Below, one piece after another: positions 24,888 through 59,601 of a stretch of 59,601 nucleotides of DNA. Source of the DNA: Acidobacteriota bacterium (GTDB taxonomy: Bacteria > Acidobacteriota > Terriglobia > 20CM-2-55-15); the NCBI GenBank assembly GCA_022821145.1, contig JAJEEE010000001.1:1-59601 (forward strand), in the 5' to 3' direction. The notes beneath the pieces were generated by a model. That model was given only the letters and a program-made list of their open reading frames with translations, was not told where the DNA came from and made no database searches. Numbering within the stretch: position 1 is the first letter of the stretch; every line of letters starts with the position of its first letter. The position numbers were made by a program, and so were the translations under genes.

Positions 24888-26042
24888 GTGGCCATGACTG
24901 AAACACCGAGACCTCAGAACGGCCCGAGGTTCCTGCTGACGGTCGCGGCGCTGATCGTCATCGTGGCTGGGCTGCAGGCGGCCGAGACCGTCATCGTGCC
25001 GTTCCTGGTGTCGGTGTTTCTGGCGATGCTGGGGATTCCGCCGCTCGGCTGGCTCCGCGCGCGCGGCGTTCCCACCCCGCTCGCGCTGGTTCTGGTCCTC
25101 CTCGGGTTCGTCGTCATCATCGTCGGGTTGGGCTTGATCGTGGCCAGCTCGGCCAGCGAGTTCACCGAGACGTTGCCGCAGTACCAGGAACGCATCGAGA
25201 GCCAGCTCGACGCGGTCGAGACGCGGCTTGCCGATTCGCAGCTCCTCAGGACTTTCGGGATCTCCGTTCCGGAGTTTCCGGACTTGGTCATCGTTCCGGA
25301 AGAAGTCGCCCCCGACGGCATCGCCGAAGTGGACGGCGTCCCGGAAGACGTCCCAGACATCGACCCGGGCCGGACACTTCCGTTCGGCCAGATCCTGCCG
25401 TTCGTCGGAACCATCTTCTCGGGCGTGACGAACTTCCTGTCCTACTTCGTCATCGTGTTCCTGCTGATGGTGTTCATCCTGACCGAAGCGTACGGGTTCC
25501 CGGCCAAGGCGCGCGCCGCGTTCGGCGAGAGCGGCGGGCGCCTGTTCCAGTTTCGCACCGTGATGCACCAGGTCCACCGGTACCTGCTCATCAAGACCGT
25601 CGTGAGCCTGGCCACCGGACTGACGCTGGGCCTGTGGGTCTGGATCCTGGGCGTCGACTTTCCCGTGCTCTGGGGCCTGCTGGCCTTCCTGCTCAACTAC
25701 ATTCCCAACATCGGATCGATCCTGGCCGCGGTCCCGCCGTTGGTCGTGGCGGCAATCCAGCCGGGCGGGGGCGTGACGCTGCTACTGCTGGTGGGCGTCG
25801 GTTACGCCGTGGTCAACCTGGTCGTCGGGAACTTCGTCGAACCGAGCCTGATGGGACACCGGCTGGGGCTGTCGACGCTGGTCGTCTTCGTCTCGCTGAT
25901 GTTCTGGGGCTGGGTATGGGGCGGGATCGGGATGCTGCTCTCCGTGCCCCTGACGATGGTGGTCAAGATCTTTCTCGAAGACACCGACGAGTACCGCTGG
26001 ATCGCGGTCCTGCTCGACAAGTCGCCGGGCCCGGCCAAGTAG
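24888..26042 (+). CDS. AI-2E family (PerM/YdiK-type) membrane permease
   Basis: 384 residues. Two N-terminal hydrophobic segments, a cytoplasmic/periplasmic coiled stretch (residues ~85-115, SEFTETLPQYQERIESQLDA), an acidic insert of about 40 residues (EEVAPDGIAEVDGVPEDVPD) and then five segments. The family signature LLAFLLNYIPNIGSILAAVP and NFVEPSLMGHRLGLSTLVV are present. Members export autoinducer-2 or act as Na+/H+ or solute carriers; substrate here is unknown. GTG 24888 or ATG 24894 may be the start. The TAG stop coincides with the first base of the downstream 302-bp repeat. Confidence 0.85.
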   Translation: MAMTETPRPQNGPRFLLTVAALIVIVAGLQAAETVIVPFLVSVFLAMLGIPPLGWLRARGVPTPLALVLVLLGFVVIIVGLGLIVASSASEFTETLPQYQERIESQLDAVETRLADSQLLRTFGISVPEFPDLVIVPEEVAPDGIAEVDGVPEDVPDIDPGRTLPFGQILPFVGTIFSGVTNFLSYFVIVFLLMVFILTEAYGFPAKARAAFGESGGRLFQFRTVMHQVHRYLLIKTVVSLATGLTLGLWVWILGVDFPVLWGLLAFLLNYIPNIGSILAAVPPLVVAAIQPGGGVTLLLLVGVGYAVVNLVVGNFVEPSLMGHRLGLSTLVVFVSLMFWGWVWGGIGMLLSVPLTMVVKIFLEDTDEYRWIAVLLDKSPGPAK

Positions 26043-26680
26043 GCGGAGCGAGGCGTGAGTCCAAGAGAAAGATCTCTTCGTTCACGGTGTCGGCCGTTGG
26101 CAAGATCTCGGCTTGCTGACGCGGCGGCCCGGAGACCGCCTTGCCCACCCGCGGCGGGGGACGCCGCGGGTACTCTGGCGAATGCGGCGACGTTGTGCGT
26201 GGCCTCCGCATCGTGGCATGGCCCTCGGTCTTCCGAGGGGGATGACCGGCGGTGCGTGTTTCGCGGCGAAGATGCGGGATCCCAATTGTAGGCGCGGCGT
26301 TCCTCGCCGCGACTGGACGCCTCCATGGCGTTGCCATGGAGGTGGCGGAGCGAGGCGTGAGTCCAAGAGAAAGATCTCTTCGTTGACGGTGTCGGCGGTT
26401 GGCAAGATCACGTCTTGCTGACGCGGCGGCCCGGAGGCCGCCTTGCCCACCCGCGGCGGGGGACGCCGCGGGTACTATGGCGAATGCGGCGACGTTGTGC
26501 GTGGCCTCCGTGGCTTGGCACGGCGCTCGGTCTTCCGAGGGGGATGACCGGCGGTGTGTGTTTCGCGGCGAAGGTGCGGGATCCCAATTGTAGGCGCGGC
26601 GTTCCTCGCCGCGACTGGACAACGAGCGGAGCGAGGCGTCAGTCCAAGAGAAAGATCTCTTGAGTTCAGTCCGCACGAAC
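26042..26680. repeat. Composite hairpin-rich repeat: two tandem ~302-bp units plus a terminal partial unit
   Basis: Units begin at 26042 and 26344 (period 302 bp) with GGCGGAGCGAGGCGTGAGTCC and are roughly 90% identical by eye; a partial third begins near 26625. Each unit contains palindromes: CAAGAG...CTCTTG, CCCGCGGCGG...CCGCGGG, CGCGGCG...CGCCGCG, and between units CCTCCATGG...CCATGGAGG. The array ends at 26680 with GTTCAGTCCGCACGAAC, whose GTTC/GAAC ends are complementary. The same terminus occurs inverted at 59117. No protein is supported inside. Function unknown: candidates are non-autonomous mobile elements or RNA hairpins. Confidence 0.8.
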
Positions 26681-26746
26681 GCGACGCCAACCGGAATTGC
26701 GCCCACAAGGTTCCACGCCGCGTGCGGACAGGCGCCCGCCGGCGCC

Positions 26747-29401
26747 TCAGGGTTCGACGCCGAAATCCACCCAGTGCCCGTTGTCGACGTAGGGGTTGAA
26801 CGGGTCCAACCCGGATTCGAACACGACGACGAAAGCGTCCTCGGCGTTCGAGGTCTCGATTCCGGGGTCGAGGATCGCCGCGATCTGCGTCTGAACGTCC
26901 TGCAGGTGCGCGCGCGATTCGGCGTCTCCGACGTCGCGGAGCGACGACTGCACGGCGCCGGACAGCGTCCGCAACTCGTCGCGCAGCAGGGCCCGCACGT
27001 CGTTGAACGCGGCGTTGCCGCCGTTGATGCGCGCATCGAGCACGTCCAGGTACAGCCGCTGGACGTTCCGGCGGAACGCGTCGATCGTCACCTCGTCGGA
27101 GGAGAGTTCCGACCAGATGCCGTTGCGGACGTCGGCCAGGAACTCCACTGGGCCGTACGCGCTGTCGTCGATGGCCTTCTGCTCGGCGAGGCGCGTGAAG
27201 CGGTTGGTGTCGAGAACGAAGTTGAGCACCGACCGCTGGCTGTTCCGGACGCGGGCCAGGACGCCGGACGGCTCCATGCGGCGGAGCAGCTCCGGCCGGA
27301 TCATGAACGCCGGCGTCCGGAACGCGTTGTCGTTCAGGAAGCGGACCGCCCCGGCCTGCCGTTCGGCCGGCACCGGGTTGAAGCGGACGCCGTCCTGCCC
27401 GCCGTGGATCTGGCGCGAGTCGAAGGCCCCCACCAGCGCGCCGACGTGATTCATCTCGCGGACCCACTGCCCGAGGACGCGCCCGTACAGGTCGTCCAGC
27501 TCGTTCCAGTTGCGGCCGTTCTCCTCGGTGGCGTCCAGCAGCATGTCCATCACACGTTCCAGGTTCTTCAACCCGAGCGTGGTGGCCTCGACCGCGTCGG
27601 CGTCGCCCACGGCCTCTGTCAGGTTCCCGGGGTCGGACGACCCCGAGCCCGTGGTCGAGAAACGGTACCACGGGGTCTCGTCCTGCTCGCGGGCCCAGGC
27701 GTCCAGCGTCGGCTTCTCCTCGTCCGGGGTCGTCGCTCCGGGAATCGGCGCGTAACCCCACCGCGTCGCCCACAGATCGTAGGGGCCGACGCCGGGTATG
27801 AGGAGCTCCGGCGGAATGTTGTCTTCGGGCTGGGCCACGTAGTTGAAGCGGGAGTAGTCCATCAGCGTGGGCGTGTGGCTCATCTCGGCCAGCCATTCCG
27901 GATCGCGGATATTCTCGATCGGGTAGGTCGAGCTGGCTTTCATGTTGTGCTGGAAGCCGAGCGTGTGCCCGATCTCGTGCGCCACGACGAATCGGAGCAG
28001 CTCGCCCATCAACTCGTCCGGGAGCGGCAACTGCTGCGCGCGCGGATCCAGCGGGGCCGCCTGGACGAAATACCAGTCGCGCAGCAGGTTCTGCACGTTG
28101 TGGTAGAACTGGATGTCCGATTCCAGGATCTCTCCCGTTCGCGGGTCGTGGACGTGGGGCCCGGACGCGTTCTCCACGCCGGAAGCCAACCACCGGATGA
28201 CCGAATAGCGGGCGTCTTCCGGGCTCCAGTCCGGATCCTCCTCCTTGGAGGGCGCTTCGCGGGCGACGATGGCGTTGCTGAAACCGGCGGCCTCGAAGGC
28301 GGGTTGCCAGTCCTCCACGCCCTTCTTGACGTACTCGACCCACTGGGACGGCGTGGCGGGGTCGACGTAGTAGACGATGGGCCGGACGGGATCGGACACC
28401 TCCGCCGCCGGATCGGACTTCTCAAGCCGCCACCGCGTGATATAGCGGCGGCGGGCCATGCGGTGCTCGTCGGTGCCGAAATCGCTCTGGGTCACCGAGA
28501 AGTACCCGACCCGGTCGTCGTGAAGGCGCGGCATCATCGGCTCTTCCGGGAGCCGGACCATGCTGAACGCCATTTCGATCGTGGCGCTTCCCGGACGCAT
28601 CCCGCGGCCGCCGCCCGCGCCGCGGCCGCCGTTGTTGTCCTGCGGACGCGTGTAGGTCTGGATCGCGCGCGCCTCGATGTTGTCGGGAAACGCCGTGATG
28701 CGGTCGACGTAGGACCGCCGCCGGTCGAATCCGCGTGCCCCGAGCGCCTGCCGGGCGCTGAACTCGGGCACTTCCTGGGCGAACATGCCCGAGATCTCGA
28801 TCACCACCGATTCCTCGTTCTCGCCGAGCGCGGCAATGTCGAACACCTGGAGAATGGCTTCGGTGTTCGAGGCGCGGACGGCCTCGGCGATGGGCAGGTC
28901 ATCGTCGGCGACCATGTCGTAGATGACGTCGCGCATGAACACGCGGTCGCCCTGGCGTTCCCACCGCACGACGCGTTCGTCCACCTTCTGGCCGCCGTAG
29001 CCGGCGCCGATGGCCGTGCGGGCGATCCGCCCCACCCAGAGAAACTCGTTGCCGAATTCCGAGACCGGGATCTCGTAGTACCAGTTGTCGTCCACCTTGT
29101 GCACGGTGAAGACGCCTTCGTCGGACTCGGCCTCGTCCGTGATGACGCGCTCGTAGGGCCGGATGCCGCCGCGGCCGCCGCGACCGCCTTCGCCCTCCTC
29201 GTCCTCGCCGTCCGCTTCATCCTCGTCCGTCGCTTCCTCGTCGTCTTCCTCCTGCTCGGACTCGGGGACCTCCGGCTCCGGCGCCGGTTCTTCCGGCGCG
29301 GGCTCCTGCGGTTCGGGTTCCTGAACGGCCAGGACACTGGGCGCCGCCGCCAGCGTCACGGCCAGAAGGGCCAGGTAGAATACTCGGACGGTCTGCGTCA
29401 T
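26747..29401 (-). CDS. Exported zinc-dependent metalloprotease (DUF4953/DUF5117 type)
   Basis: About 884 residues. Signal peptide to about residue 25, then a very acidic Glu/Pro/Asp-rich stretch (~residues 27-75) ending in Gly-Arg repeats. The catalytic motif VAHEIGHTLGFQHN near residue 474 is the extended HExxHxxGxxH of metzincins; MDYSRFNY about 55 residues later supplies the Met-turn. N-terminal DUF5117-like and C-terminal DUF4953 regions match the large secreted proteases common in Acidobacteriota and Bacteroidota. ATG 29401 is preferred to ATG 29413 because GAGG lies 6 nt upstream of it. Likely periplasmic or outer-membrane-facing protein degradation. Confidence 0.88.
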   Translation of the reverse strand: MTQTVRVFYLALLAVTLAAAPSVLAVQEPEPQEPAPEEPAPEPEVPESEQEEDDEEATDEDEADGEDEEGEGGRGGRGGIRPYERVITDEAESDEGVFTVHKVDDNWYYEIPVSEFGNEFLWVGRIARTAIGAGYGGQKVDERVVRWERQGDRVFMRDVIYDMVADDDLPIAEAVRASNTEAILQVFDIAALGENEESVVIEISGMFAQEVPEFSARQALGARGFDRRRSYVDRITAFPDNIEARAIQTYTRPQDNNGGRGAGGGRGMRPGSATIEMAFSMVRLPEEPMMPRLHDDRVGYFSVTQSDFGTDEHRMARRRYITRWRLEKSDPAAEVSDPVRPIVYYVDPATPSQWVEYVKKGVEDWQPAFEAAGFSNAIVAREAPSKEEDPDWSPEDARYSVIRWLASGVENASGPHVHDPRTGEILESDIQFYHNVQNLLRDWYFVQAAPLDPRAQQLPLPDELMGELLRFVVAHEIGHTLGFQHNMKASSTYPIENIRDPEWLAEMSHTPTLMDYSRFNYVAQPEDNIPPELLIPGVGPYDLWATRWGYAPIPGATTPDEEKPTLDAWAREQDETPWYRFSTTGSGSSDPGNLTEAVGDADAVEATTLGLKNLERVMDMLLDATEENGRNWNELDDLYGRVLGQWVREMNHVGALVGAFDSRQIHGGQDGVRFNPVPAERQAGAVRFLNDNAFRTPAFMIRPELLRRMEPSGVLARVRNSQRSVLNFVLDTNRFTRLAEQKAIDDSAYGPVEFLADVRNGIWSELSSDEVTIDAFRRNVQRLYLDVLDARINGGNAAFNDVRALLRDELRTLSGAVQSSLRDVGDAESRAHLQDVQTQIAAILDPGIETSNAEDAFVVVFESGLDPFNPYVDNGHWVDFGVEP

Positions 29402-29531
29402 CGGTGGCCTCATTTCGACGGTATCGTTCGAATCTAGTCGCTTTGGCGGCCAAAGGCAAGGAACGCCCGACTTCGAGCCTGCTCAAGGCGCGCGCCGTGG
29501 CGCCCGGGGCTGATATAGTCCGAACCGCGCC

Positions 29532-45066: not shown

Positions 45067-45100
45067 TTGCGTGTTCGACGATCTTGCTTCAACAATTCCA

Positions 45101-45239
45101 TTGGACTGACGCCTCGCTTCGCTCGTTGTCCACCCGCGGCGAGGAAGGCCGCGGGCGCCATGGGGAACGCGCCAAGGCTCTCTCCGAACTGGACACCGGG
45201 CTTCGCCGGTCGGATGCGGCCGGTTGTCACCGGACTCTG
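45101..45239. repeat. Fragment of the dispersed hairpin-rich repeat
   Basis: TTGGACTGACGCCTCGCTTC and onward to about 45132 is almost identical to the reverse complement of 26617-26648. A GC-rich hairpin CCCGCGGCG...CCGCGGG and a CCGG...CCGG dyad follow. Orientation matches the copy at the right edge. The rest of the interval shows only loose similarity. Confidence 0.6.
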
Positions 45240-51914: not shown

Positions 51915-54551
51915 TCACTCGAATCGGAGAGCGATCGGCGGATCGACGCGTGTTGCGCGTCTGGCGGGTACCCAGCAGGCGAACGTGCCAACTGCGACGA
52001 AGACCCCTGCGATAGCCACGTAGGTCGCAACATCCGTGGGCTCTGTTCCGAAGAGGAACGATTCGATAAATCGAGTCAGGGGCCACGCGCCGAATATTCC
52101 GAGCAGGACGCCCAGCAAGACCAGTGGAACGCCTTCGCTCATGATCCGTCGAAGGACGCCCAGGCGACCGGAACCCAGAGCCATGCGGATGCCCATCTCG
52201 TGTGTCCTTCTGGCCACCGAGTACGAGACGACTCCGAAGATCCCGATCGCGGAGATCAGGAGCGCGACCGCGCCGAACGATACCAGGAGAAACACCTGGA
52301 ATCTCTGAGCCGCATACTCTCGGTAGACGATGTCTTCCATCAGTTGGACATTGGCGATCGTCTGCTGTGGATAGGCGGACCAGACAGCCTCTCTCAGCGC
52401 CGGAATGATCGGTCCCGGATCCCCAGCGGTGCGAACGAGAAGATATCTTGACGGGGCCAACGGCTCCGAGAGCAGGGACCAGTAGACCGCGGCGTAGCCG
52501 CCGGGTCGTCCCCGGCCCTTCCTGACGTCCTCGACGACGCCCACGACCGTGTAGACACGCTCGTACTGGCTGTCCGGATTGGATCTCAGGGTGCGTCCGA
52601 CCGGATCTTCGCCCGGCCATAGCGAGTCGGCAGCCGTCGCGCTCGCCACCAGCACCCGCGGGGCACTCTCGTCGTCGCGCTCTGTAAAGGCACGGCCCGC
52701 AAGCAGATCGATCCCGAGTGTTCTGAAGTACTCCGGAGTGACGCCCCAACGCTCGACCTCGGCTTCCATGCCTGGTCTTGTCGGGTGATCGTCCACGACG
52801 AACCTCTGCATGAAGTTGTTGGCCGGCACCATCGGCGTTTCGGTAGACAGAGCAACGTTGAGAACGCCGGGCACCTGGCGGACCGCCTCCTCCAGTGCAC
52901 GGTAGAAGGGCAGCGTGTCCACGTCGTTGCTGCGAAATGTGACATCGAGAGAGATGACGTTTTCCGGGTCGACGCCGATCTCGACCGCCTGAAGGGCAAT
53001 GAAGCTCCTGATCAGAAGACCAGCGCCAATACAGAGAATCATCGCGAGAGTCAGTTCGGCGACGGTCAAGGCCCAACGGGCCCGTTGGCCGACCAGCCGC
53101 CCGGGAGTGCGCTCGAAGCCCTGCTTGAACGACTCTACCAGACTCTTTCGTGATGCGAGCCAGGCCGGATAGAGGCTGAAGAGCGCCGTGCTGACCACCG
53201 ACACGACGGTCGCGAAGCCGGCGACCCTCCAGTCGATACCGACCTCCGCGATGCGGGGCACATCGGCCGGGAGGTATGTGAGGATGGCGTCGATCAGGAT
53301 CCACGCCGCGGTCAATCCGAGCGCCCCGCCGAGAATCGACAGGACCAGACTCTCGGTCAACAACTGCCGAACGATCCTCAGCCGGCCCGCGCCAAGAGAC
53401 AGGCGGGCGGCGATCTCCTTCCCGCGACGTGTGGAGTGCCCCAGCATGAGATTGGTCACGTTGGCCAGGGCGATCATCAGCACGAAGCCCACTGCGCCCA
53501 GCAGCATCAGGGGCAGTTGCCCGGTGTTTCCTGTCACGACCTCATGGAGAGGGGTCAAGGAGACCGTTCGGCCTTCGGGAACTTCCGGAATCGATCCGGC
53601 GAAACGCGCGGAGATCGTTTCCAGTTCCGCGACTCCCTGCTCGGGTGTCACTGCGGGCCTCAGCTTGCCGTAGACGCGGAGTGGATACGAACTCGAAACC
53701 CGTTCGGGATCGAGACCCAGCGGCACGAAGAAGTCCGCACGTGTACGGGGGAACTCGAAGTCCGACGGGATGATGCCGATCACGGTATACGCGCGTTCGC
53801 CATACAAACGGTCATCGACGAGAATCGACTCGCCTATGATGTCGCGGCCGCCGAAGACCCGCTGCCACACGTCGTAGTCCAGCAGCGCGACCGGTGGGGC
53901 CCCGGGACGATCCTCTTCGGGGGTGAAGGGCCTTCCGAGGACGGGTTCGATTCCGAGCATTTCGAACATCGCGCTCGGCACTGCGCTTCCGTCCAAGAGT
54001 TCCGGGGTCGCTTCCCCGAGCAACCGAACCTCGGTGCGGACGCCCGTTATGATCGCTTCGAACGCCGACAGTTCCTCGTTCCACGCGTGGTATTCGGGAA
54101 CCGATGGGCCGCCCCGCGATCCTCTCGGTGTTGCGTCGATCTGATACAAGCGTTCAGGATCAGCGTAGGGAAGCGGCCTGAACAGAATCGTGTCCACGAC
54201 GCTAAAGACAAGGGTCGTCGACCCGATGCCCAGCATCAGCGCGAGAATGGCGGTCAGGCTGTAGGTGGGGTGTTTGGCCAGGACTCCAAGTGCGTAGCGA
54301 AGATCCTGCAAGACGGTCTCGATCCACCTGAAGCAGCGTACGTCCCGGTGGGTCTCGACGGCGCTGGCGAGACTTCCAACTCGAAGATGCGCCTGCCGCC
54401 GCGCTTCTTCGGGGCCCATCCCGGAACGCGCGTTTTCTTCACTCAGAAGCTCGATGTGGGTGGACAGGTCTTCCTGCAGATCGTGATCCAGTCGCCGCCG
54501 CCTGAAGAGCGCCGCCACGCGAGCGAGCGTCTGATAGAGCGAGGCCATCAT
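51915..54551 (-). CDS. ADOP-family duplicated ABC permease (MacB_PCD/FtsX)
   Basis: 878 residues. Residues ~1-85 form the cytoplasmic helical extension typical of acidobacterial duplicated orphan permeases. First FtsX half: TM near 100, MacB-like periplasmic region to ~355 (FEMLGIEPVLGRPFTPEEDR), three TMs ~360-470. Second half: TM ~495, periplasmic region with FRTLGIDLLAGRAFTERDDE, last three TMs ~745-870 with RRTHEMGIRMALGSGR and PARRATRVDPPIALR. No ATPase is adjacent, as usual for ADOP. Translationally overlapped with the PadR gene. Probably efflux or envelope stress. Confidence 0.92.
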   Translation of the reverse strand: MMASLYQTLARVAALFRRRRLDHDLQEDLSTHIELLSEENARSGMGPEEARRQAHLRVGSLASAVETHRDVRCFRWIETVLQDLRYALGVLAKHPTYSLTAILALMLGIGSTTLVFSVVDTILFRPLPYADPERLYQIDATPRGSRGGPSVPEYHAWNEELSAFEAIITGVRTEVRLLGEATPELLDGSAVPSAMFEMLGIEPVLGRPFTPEEDRPGAPPVALLDYDVWQRVFGGRDIIGESILVDDRLYGERAYTVIGIIPSDFEFPRTRADFFVPLGLDPERVSSSYPLRVYGKLRPAVTPEQGVAELETISARFAGSIPEVPEGRTVSLTPLHEVVTGNTGQLPLMLLGAVGFVLMIALANVTNLMLGHSTRRGKEIAARLSLGAGRLRIVRQLLTESLVLSILGGALGLTAAWILIDAILTYLPADVPRIAEVGIDWRVAGFATVVSVVSTALFSLYPAWLASRKSLVESFKQGFERTPGRLVGQRARWALTVAELTLAMILCIGAGLLIRSFIALQAVEIGVDPENVISLDVTFRSNDVDTLPFYRALEEAVRQVPGVLNVALSTETPMVPANNFMQRFVVDDHPTRPGMEAEVERWGVTPEYFRTLGIDLLAGRAFTERDDESAPRVLVASATAADSLWPGEDPVGRTLRSNPDSQYERVYTVVGVVEDVRKGRGRPGGYAAVYWSLLSEPLAPSRYLLVRTAGDPGPIIPALREAVWSAYPQQTIANVQLMEDIVYREYAAQRFQVFLLVSFGAVALLISAIGIFGVVSYSVARRTHEMGIRMALGSGRLGVLRRIMSEGVPLVLLGVLLGIFGAWPLTRFIESFLFGTEPTDVATYVAIAGVFVAVGTFACWVPARRATRVDPPIALRFE

Positions 54552-59116: not shown

Positions 59117-59601
59117 GTTCGTGCGGACTGAACTGAAGAGGTCTTTCTCTTGGACTGACGCCTTGCTCCGCCACCTCCATGGCAACGCCATGGAGGCGTC
59201 CAGTCGCGGCGGAACACGCAGCGCCGGTCATCCCCTTGGAACACCGAGCGCCATACCCACGCACGCAGGACACGCACTTCGTCGCCGCATTCCCCATTGG
59301 ACCCGCGGCGTCCACGCCGCGGGTGGACAAGGCGGCCTCCGGGACGCCGCGTCAGCAAGCCGAGATCTCGCCACCCGCCGACACCGTGAACGAAGAGGTC
59401 ATTTTATTGAACTGACGCCTCGGCGTCCGCCTCGTTGTCCAGTCGCGGCGAGGAACGCCGCGCCTACTATTGGAGAGTTCCGCAAGGTCGCAGCGAAACA
59501 CCGAGCGGCATGCCAAGGTACGGAGGACACGCAGAACGTCGCCGCATTCCCCATGGTACCCGCGGCGTCCACGCCGCGGGTGGCCAAGGCGGCCTCCGGG
59601 A
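59117..59601. repeat. Inverted copy of the composite hairpin-rich repeat, running off the right edge
   Basis: Begins with GTTCGTGCGGACTGAACTG, the exact reverse complement of the terminus at 26680, then CCTCCATGGCAACGCCATGG and CCCGCGGCGTCC...CCGCGGG hairpins. A second unit starts near 59411 and continues past the window end. Identity to the left array is high by eye over the first ~100 bp. No protein is supported. Confidence 0.8.

Follow-up and report, generated by a model that had tools for sequence, protein, structure and literature searches.

A tandem array in an Acidobacteriota genome and the genus-restricted, MITE-like modular family to which it probably belongs

The 302-bp tandem repeat that follows an AI-2E family transporter gene in the window (the whole stretch of 59,601 nucleotides of Acidobacteriota DNA analysed here) is, with good confidence, a local tandem array in one copy of a MITE-like, modular and non-coding element that is restricted to a single genus. 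Members of this family lie between genes and have inserted in the past with target duplication at three sites. The 302-bp unit is an internal repeat of the mobile unit and not the mobile unit itself. Judged from its modules, the window array represents the tandem interior of one of these elements, minus the left end.

Results

Layout and boundaries of the window array

Self-comparison of the window aligned 26042-26318 with 26344-26620 at about 95% identity over 277 bp and an offset of 302 bp, followed by a third copy of only the first 36 bp of the unit (26626-26661), and Tandem Repeats Finder recovered the same array with a period of 302 and a score of 1060. A sequence-only reading of this DNA had described two near-identical units and a partial one, the first starting on the final base of the AI-2E gene stop codon, and both points are borne out (the stop codon is TAG; Table 1). 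The same reading had counted at least four hairpins in each unit. In a simple hairpin scan this held for unit 1, with hairpins at 26147-26171, 26226-26248, 26290-26314 and 26318-26344, but not for unit 2, which has three and lacks the CCATGG hairpin.

The array had also been given a defined end, a short dyad GTTC...GAAC at 26680. Both motifs are present (26664-26667 and 26677-26680), and of the 41 genome matches to 26621-26700 other than the array itself, eight extend as far as 26680, give or take about 2 bp, or beyond, but intact relatives extend about 50 bp past this point. Position 26680 therefore looks, from these alignments, like a truncation or decay point of the window copy rather than the true terminus of the family. 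At its other side the array begins inside an end module and the left terminal segment is absent. Because the left segment is missing and the right one shortened, the window copy is probably immobile now. Neither an empty site nor a target duplication was found for this array, and its site is occupied in both the host and a sister genome of the same genus.

Scanning with a covariance model of the end module (R1, described below) identified three loci of the family in the window: the array, a solo module and a second array that runs off the contig end. The very start of the contig (window 1-216) carries a separate 12/18/42-bp tandem repeat (GTCACCGTCGCCATCGCC) reported by Tandem Repeats Finder.

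Table 1. Coordinates of the array, its neighbours and related copies (window positions unless a contig is named)
Feature	Position	Strand	Remarks
AI-2E family transporter gene, flanking	24888..26042	+	Pfam PF01594
Unit 1: end-module tail, linker, inverted end module, middle, end module with CCATGG hairpin	26042..26343	+	302 bp
Inverted end module	26101..26173	-	R1 41.0 bits
End module	26288..26381	+	R1 59.9 bits
Unit 2: plan of unit 1 without CCATGG hairpin	26344..26624	+	281 bp; 94-95% identity to unit 1
Inverted end module	26401..26475	-	R1 46.0 bits
End module	26590..26662	+	R1 96.7 bits
Partial third unit (tail of last end module)	26625..26661	+	36 bp, 97% identity
Right terminal segment, start (GAGTTCAGTCCGCACGAAC)	26662..26680	+	shorter than in intact copies
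Met-zincin / DUF5117 protein gene, flanking, convergent	26747..29413	-	
Solo end module, same family	45086..45158	-	R1 67.9 bits
Second array of the family	59117..59601	-	right terminal segment complete-looking
Class A copy	C79:47779		R1 76.0 bits
Class A copy	C79:5961		R1 81.4 bits
Class A copy	C30:28625		R1 59.4 bits
Class A copy	C70:15144		R1 66.3 bits
Class B copy	C11:5771		R1 73.3 bits
Class B copy	C11:5617		R1 68.0 bits

A dispersed family confined to one genus

The host genome is a 4.18-Mb acidobacterial draft in 89 contigs. Searching it with the unit gave 99 matches, and the unit and end searches together gave 48 clusters, so that the further copies on which the sequence-only reading depended do exist. 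Covariance modelling, which that reading had proposed, was applied to the end module: R1, built from an alignment (A1) of 32 copies, detected 145 end modules in the host as a lower bound (150 candidates were scored), 60 in the sister genome, which was the only other member of the genus searched, and none in nine other genomes of the same bacterial family. A DNA search of 61 relatives returned matches in three, namely the host, the sister and one further genome (G007). The match in the last, 27 bp with an E value of 9e-4, was dismissed as chance because R1 finds nothing there. An exact 28-position pattern retrieved a single record from the genome collection, the sister MAG. Among the genomes searched, the family is restricted to one genus. 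The window has no Rfam match at the gathering score, and the family is unmatched in phage and plasmid records; together with the palindrome-rich units, this agrees with its earlier description as a composite, non-coding element.

Elsewhere, complete copies measure about 250-345 bp and have terminal inverted repeats, and in many elements two inverted double-hairpin modules frame a variable middle. Sister loci L122, L124 and L131-L137 form a subfamily of their own, with the same hairpin ends but a different middle and a different linker between tandem copies.

Thirteen of the 178 contig ends of the host lie inside family arrays (the starts of C11, C30, C37, C45, C49, C80 and C84 and the ends of C13, C34, C58, C65, C72 and C74), so the longest arrays are probably unresolved in this draft. 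Assembly is thus difficult in these repeats, and the tandem duplication in the window might itself be an unreal product of it. However, alignment of the two window units shows 16 differing columns among 281 and 21 gap positions, the array lies within unique flanks, and a separate genome has arrays of its own, all of which make an artefact highly improbable. Tandem palindromic units with a short terminal dyad might also represent a site-specific recombination array, either of integron attC sites or of CRISPR-like spacers. There are, however, no genes or cassette ORF between the units, which are near-copies without unique spacers; the neighbours are transporter and protease genes, and the family occupies at least 48 separate places. 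Judged from the units and their neighbours, we consider such an array practically out of the question.

Two end classes, target duplications and empty sites

Complete copies fall into two end classes, both with terminal inverted repeats. Class A runs from TAGTGTCGTGTC... to ...GACACNACACTAG over about 250 bp, and class B starts at approximately CAGGGYTGWTTCACGC, finishes with its inverse and reaches about 344 bp. By R1 score the same end module occurs in both (Table 1). In some class B copies, such as L165, the left end is followed by a hairpin and then by units joined by the linker GTTSACGGTGT...; the window array corresponds to this interior portion.

We joined the flanks of 14 host loci, with inserts of 249-393 bp between the marks used, and searched for the joined sequences in the sister genome. 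The junction is unbroken there for eight loci (L090, L141, L168, L164, L145, L099, L098 and L072), one (L107) matched as two adjoining pieces, two (L147 and L077) matched on one side only, and three (L139, L062 and L160) were unmatched. At three of the 14 loci the insertion could be resolved to the base, and at each the target occurs once in the sister and is duplicated around the host insert. L145 has CTAG at both ends in the host and once in the sister, L164 has CGAATCGCC twice in the host and CGAATTGCC once in the sister, and L168 has CGGGGTCGTCATT twice and CGGTGTTGTCATT once, respectively. In the alignments of host to sister, L141, L090 and L098 are insertion-like with no readable duplication, and one side aligns poorly at L099, L072 and L107. 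L062, whose site is among those unmatched in the sister, shows a 10-bp direct repeat by eye. Duplication lengths vary (2-4, 9 and 13): the class A target is TA or CTAG, and the class B target is 9-13 bp.

The family therefore shares with MITEs a small size, a high copy number and the lack of a transposase gene; its terminal inverted repeats and target duplications, and the sites that are empty in the sister, mark it as MITE-like (non-autonomous).

The class A end pattern matched 16 of 299 genomes of the class, host and sister included, and its presence in 14 further genomes indicates that ends of this type extend beyond the genus. Small TA-type elements with class A ends but other insides thus exist in other genomes, as far as their sequences can tell. 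At L229/L239, L233 (the same place as L243), L234 and L245, all in other genomes of the class, inverted TAGTGTSGTGT-type pairs lie 146-268 bp apart. A scan of the open frames around ten of 11 such loci found no transposase domain. The class B end pattern has 12 sites in the host and 4, with 3 mismatches each, in the sister (backward control, 1 in the sister), and no pair at IS distance was found in either genome.

Hairpins and exchangeable palindromes in the end module

Folding of the unit is far above that of shuffles, with z-scores of -6.8 as DNA and -5.6 as RNA, and none of 100 shuffles reached it in either case. The end module consists of a hairpin (GTAG-N-CGCGGCG-TTCCT-CGCCGCG), a second palindrome carrying CGTC (GGACAACG..GGCGTCAGTCC) and a tail (AAGAAAAYGATCTCTTC), in this order. 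Counted by eye, GTAG stands at the hairpin foot in 21 of the 32 aligned copies, and the rest have GTAC, GGAC, GCAG, GTAA or GGAA. In the copies read, the GTAG/CGTC-tagged palindrome is always part of a larger element.

Across the 32 copies, pairing holds in 91.2% of cells, and two-sided changes affect 29 cells as compared with 12.9 in shuffles; two of five covariation measures (pairs with two-sided change and further pair types) are not above shuffles. These pair counts under-represent longer palindrome variants, since the 32 copies were picked from 81 candidates for a length of about 70-77 and for spread, and at least one of the 81 (window 52439-52511) is a chance match. Between GGAC and GCGTCAG the inner palindrome has 56 forms among 113 matches in host and sister, at least one of which is due to chance. 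Unrelated palindromes occur at this position within one constant frame, and those that replace one another inside the module include AGCGGAGCGA, AGGCGGAGCCGA, CCATGGCGTTGCCATGG and GGCAATTGCCTTCGCAATTGCC.

Local tandem growth and placement between genes

The inner units measured are 217-309 bp long and number 1 to 3 per array. For all 13 units of multi-unit arrays (24 units in all), the nearest unit belongs to the same array, whereas label shuffling gave a mean of 0.4 and a maximum of 7 in 1000 trials, and mean identity is 95.2% within arrays versus 83.5% between them. At the site of the window array the sister genome, with flanks 95-98% identical, has one unit plus tail where the host has two. 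Units thus multiply, or stay alike, locally; the nearest-unit result and the single unit in the sister indicate that tandem growth is local, and the 302-bp period probably arose by such multiplication or homogenisation.

All 57 array segments proved intergenic, any overlap with a called gene being 60 bp at most; genes were called with a codon-usage script, by which 86% of the window is coding, L103 and L139 are the same locus counted twice, and L158 was dropped as having no segment. Among the 41 segments with both neighbours called, 20 have codirectional, 11 divergent and 10 convergent neighbours, with no bias toward gene 3' ends (P 0.96 versus 2:1:1). At one locus (L100) about 800 bp separate the array parts and hold what by eye is a toxin-antitoxin-like gene pair, MazF/PemK-type toxin-like and ribbon-helix-helix antitoxin-like (L100:2114-2682, minus strand, approximately C70:191.7-192.2 kb), and no transposase. 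This stretch is mostly present in the sister also (L124).

Strong, covarying hairpins, together with the convergent genes that flank the window array, could reflect a transcription terminator or regulatory RNA selected between genes. Nevertheless, a scan of 25900-26800 for sigma-70 promoters and T-run terminators found no terminator or promoter-like site, and the contexts of the 41 segments show no preference of orientation. The lack of an Rfam match, the confinement to one genus and the empty sites in the sister also argue against such a role, which we regard as very unlikely.

Search for a transposase partner

DDE_Tnp_1 (PF01609) genes number 5 in the host and 0 in the sister, and DDE_3 (PF13358) has 1 match in the host and 2 in the sister. 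No autonomous partner with family ends was found among the PF01609 and PF13358 genes of host and sister and the Y1_Tnp (PF01797) gene of the host, a negative limited to these transposase families and by the breaks of both drafts in these repeats. As no partner was found within this scope, we use the term 'MITE-like'. The only Y1_Tnp match in the host is a RAYT-like gene (L031:1201-1869, minus strand, contig C51) that scores 56.9 bits against NCBIfam REP_Tyr_transpos, below the cut-off of 80. No end module lies beside it (best R1 score 10.1 bits, E 0.4). A 17-bp inverted repeat adjoins this gene and is unrelated to the family.

This gene bears on the possibility that the repeats are a REP/BIME family, in which GTAG-/CGTC-tagged palindromes are spread by a RAYT (an HUH tyrosine transposase) acting on single-stranded hairpins and the arrays are BIMEs. 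The frequent GTAG at the hairpin foot, the CGTC of the second palindrome, the two-sided changes in the hairpins, the intergenic position and the presence of one RAYT-like gene are all consistent with it, and RAYT-like genes flanked by long terminal repeats have been reported from Acidobacteria (PMC3733652). However, the module is absent beside the RAYT-like gene and the inverted repeat that does adjoin it is a different one, the copies show no downstream-of-gene bias, and the target duplications and terminal inverted repeats point to DDE transposases rather than RAYTs. A REP/BIME origin is therefore unlikely.

Discussion

The sequence-only reading knew of no element type to which the repeat belongs. 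This stands insofar as Rfam, phage and plasmid records gave no match, but the inverted repeats at its ends, the duplicated targets and the sites empty in the sister are MITE-like, the GTAG tag is REP-like and the plan is BOX-like. Going by sequence features, we would class the family as MITE-like and modular, with a BOX-like build, and not as REP. The family looks unrecorded in the open-licence literature searched, but small bacterial transposon relatives that work likewise are already known.

In plan the family appears nearest to BOX, known from Streptococcus pneumoniae and S. suis (PMC3049150). There, tandem inner modules in varying number are enclosed by end modules, the element has terminal inverted repeats and target duplications, and S. 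suis has two end-module sets around one inner module. The family shares with BOX a composite plan, terminal inverted repeats, target duplications, lack of coding capacity and strong hairpins, and its classes A and B resemble the two end sets of S. suis BOX in sharing one inner module. The BOX plan is present in its 1 to 3 inner units and in L165, which joins left end and units. It differs in being GC-rich and from another phylum (the comparison is one of plan, not of sequence), in having inner units that themselves hold inverted hairpin modules, and in having two end classes with different target kinds. Given base composition and phylum, sequence homology to boxA, boxB or boxC is unlikely, and we do not claim BOX membership.

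MITEs are likewise short, non-coding, intergenic and of high copy, with terminal inverted repeats and target duplications (PMC10969869 and PMC3049150); the family differs in that no autonomous partner was found and in its internal tandem arrays and exchangeable inner palindromes. With REP/BIME and with the terminal-repeat families that adjoin RAYT-like genes in Acidobacteria (PMC3733652), it shares a GTAG-tagged, GC-rich hairpin, a CGTC-bearing second palindrome, clustering and intergenic position, but its mobile unit is about 250-345 bp with a target duplication and does not flank the RAYT-like gene of the host.

The intact element has left and right terminal segments with inverted repeats. 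Such repeats, like duplicated targets, are characteristic of DDE transposases and not of RAYTs, and from the target duplications we infer that the element would have been moved in trans by DDE transposases recognising its ends, enzymes now lost or not found. Two end classes with two target kinds suggest that there were probably two such enzymes. Later, the repeated end modules may have recombined or slipped against one another, altering unit number. Hairpin pairing may have been kept because of a role for the hairpins as single-strand structures, whether in transposition, in replication or in RNA. From the sequences, mobility is the one function to which the family points.

Small palindromes also appear to be inserted or exchanged within larger repeats in the SDR, the very small nested repeats of cyanobacteria, to which the family is likened by description and not by sequence. 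A two-level mobile system might be envisaged, in which the double-hairpin module would be a cassette moving between class A and class B backbones, copied into elements by an enzyme that reads hairpins, for which the single RAYT-like protein might be a candidate, and spread with them by DDE transposases. We hold this to be doubtful.

The MITE-like modular family may be the reason for contig breaks at such sites in draft genomes of the genus. If our reading of it is right, Acidobacteria would have a GC-rich counterpart of BOX, restricted to one genus and combining two unrelated end sets with one inner module, and the family would make the exchange of hairpins and modules among small mobile elements testable via two sister genomes with real empty sites.
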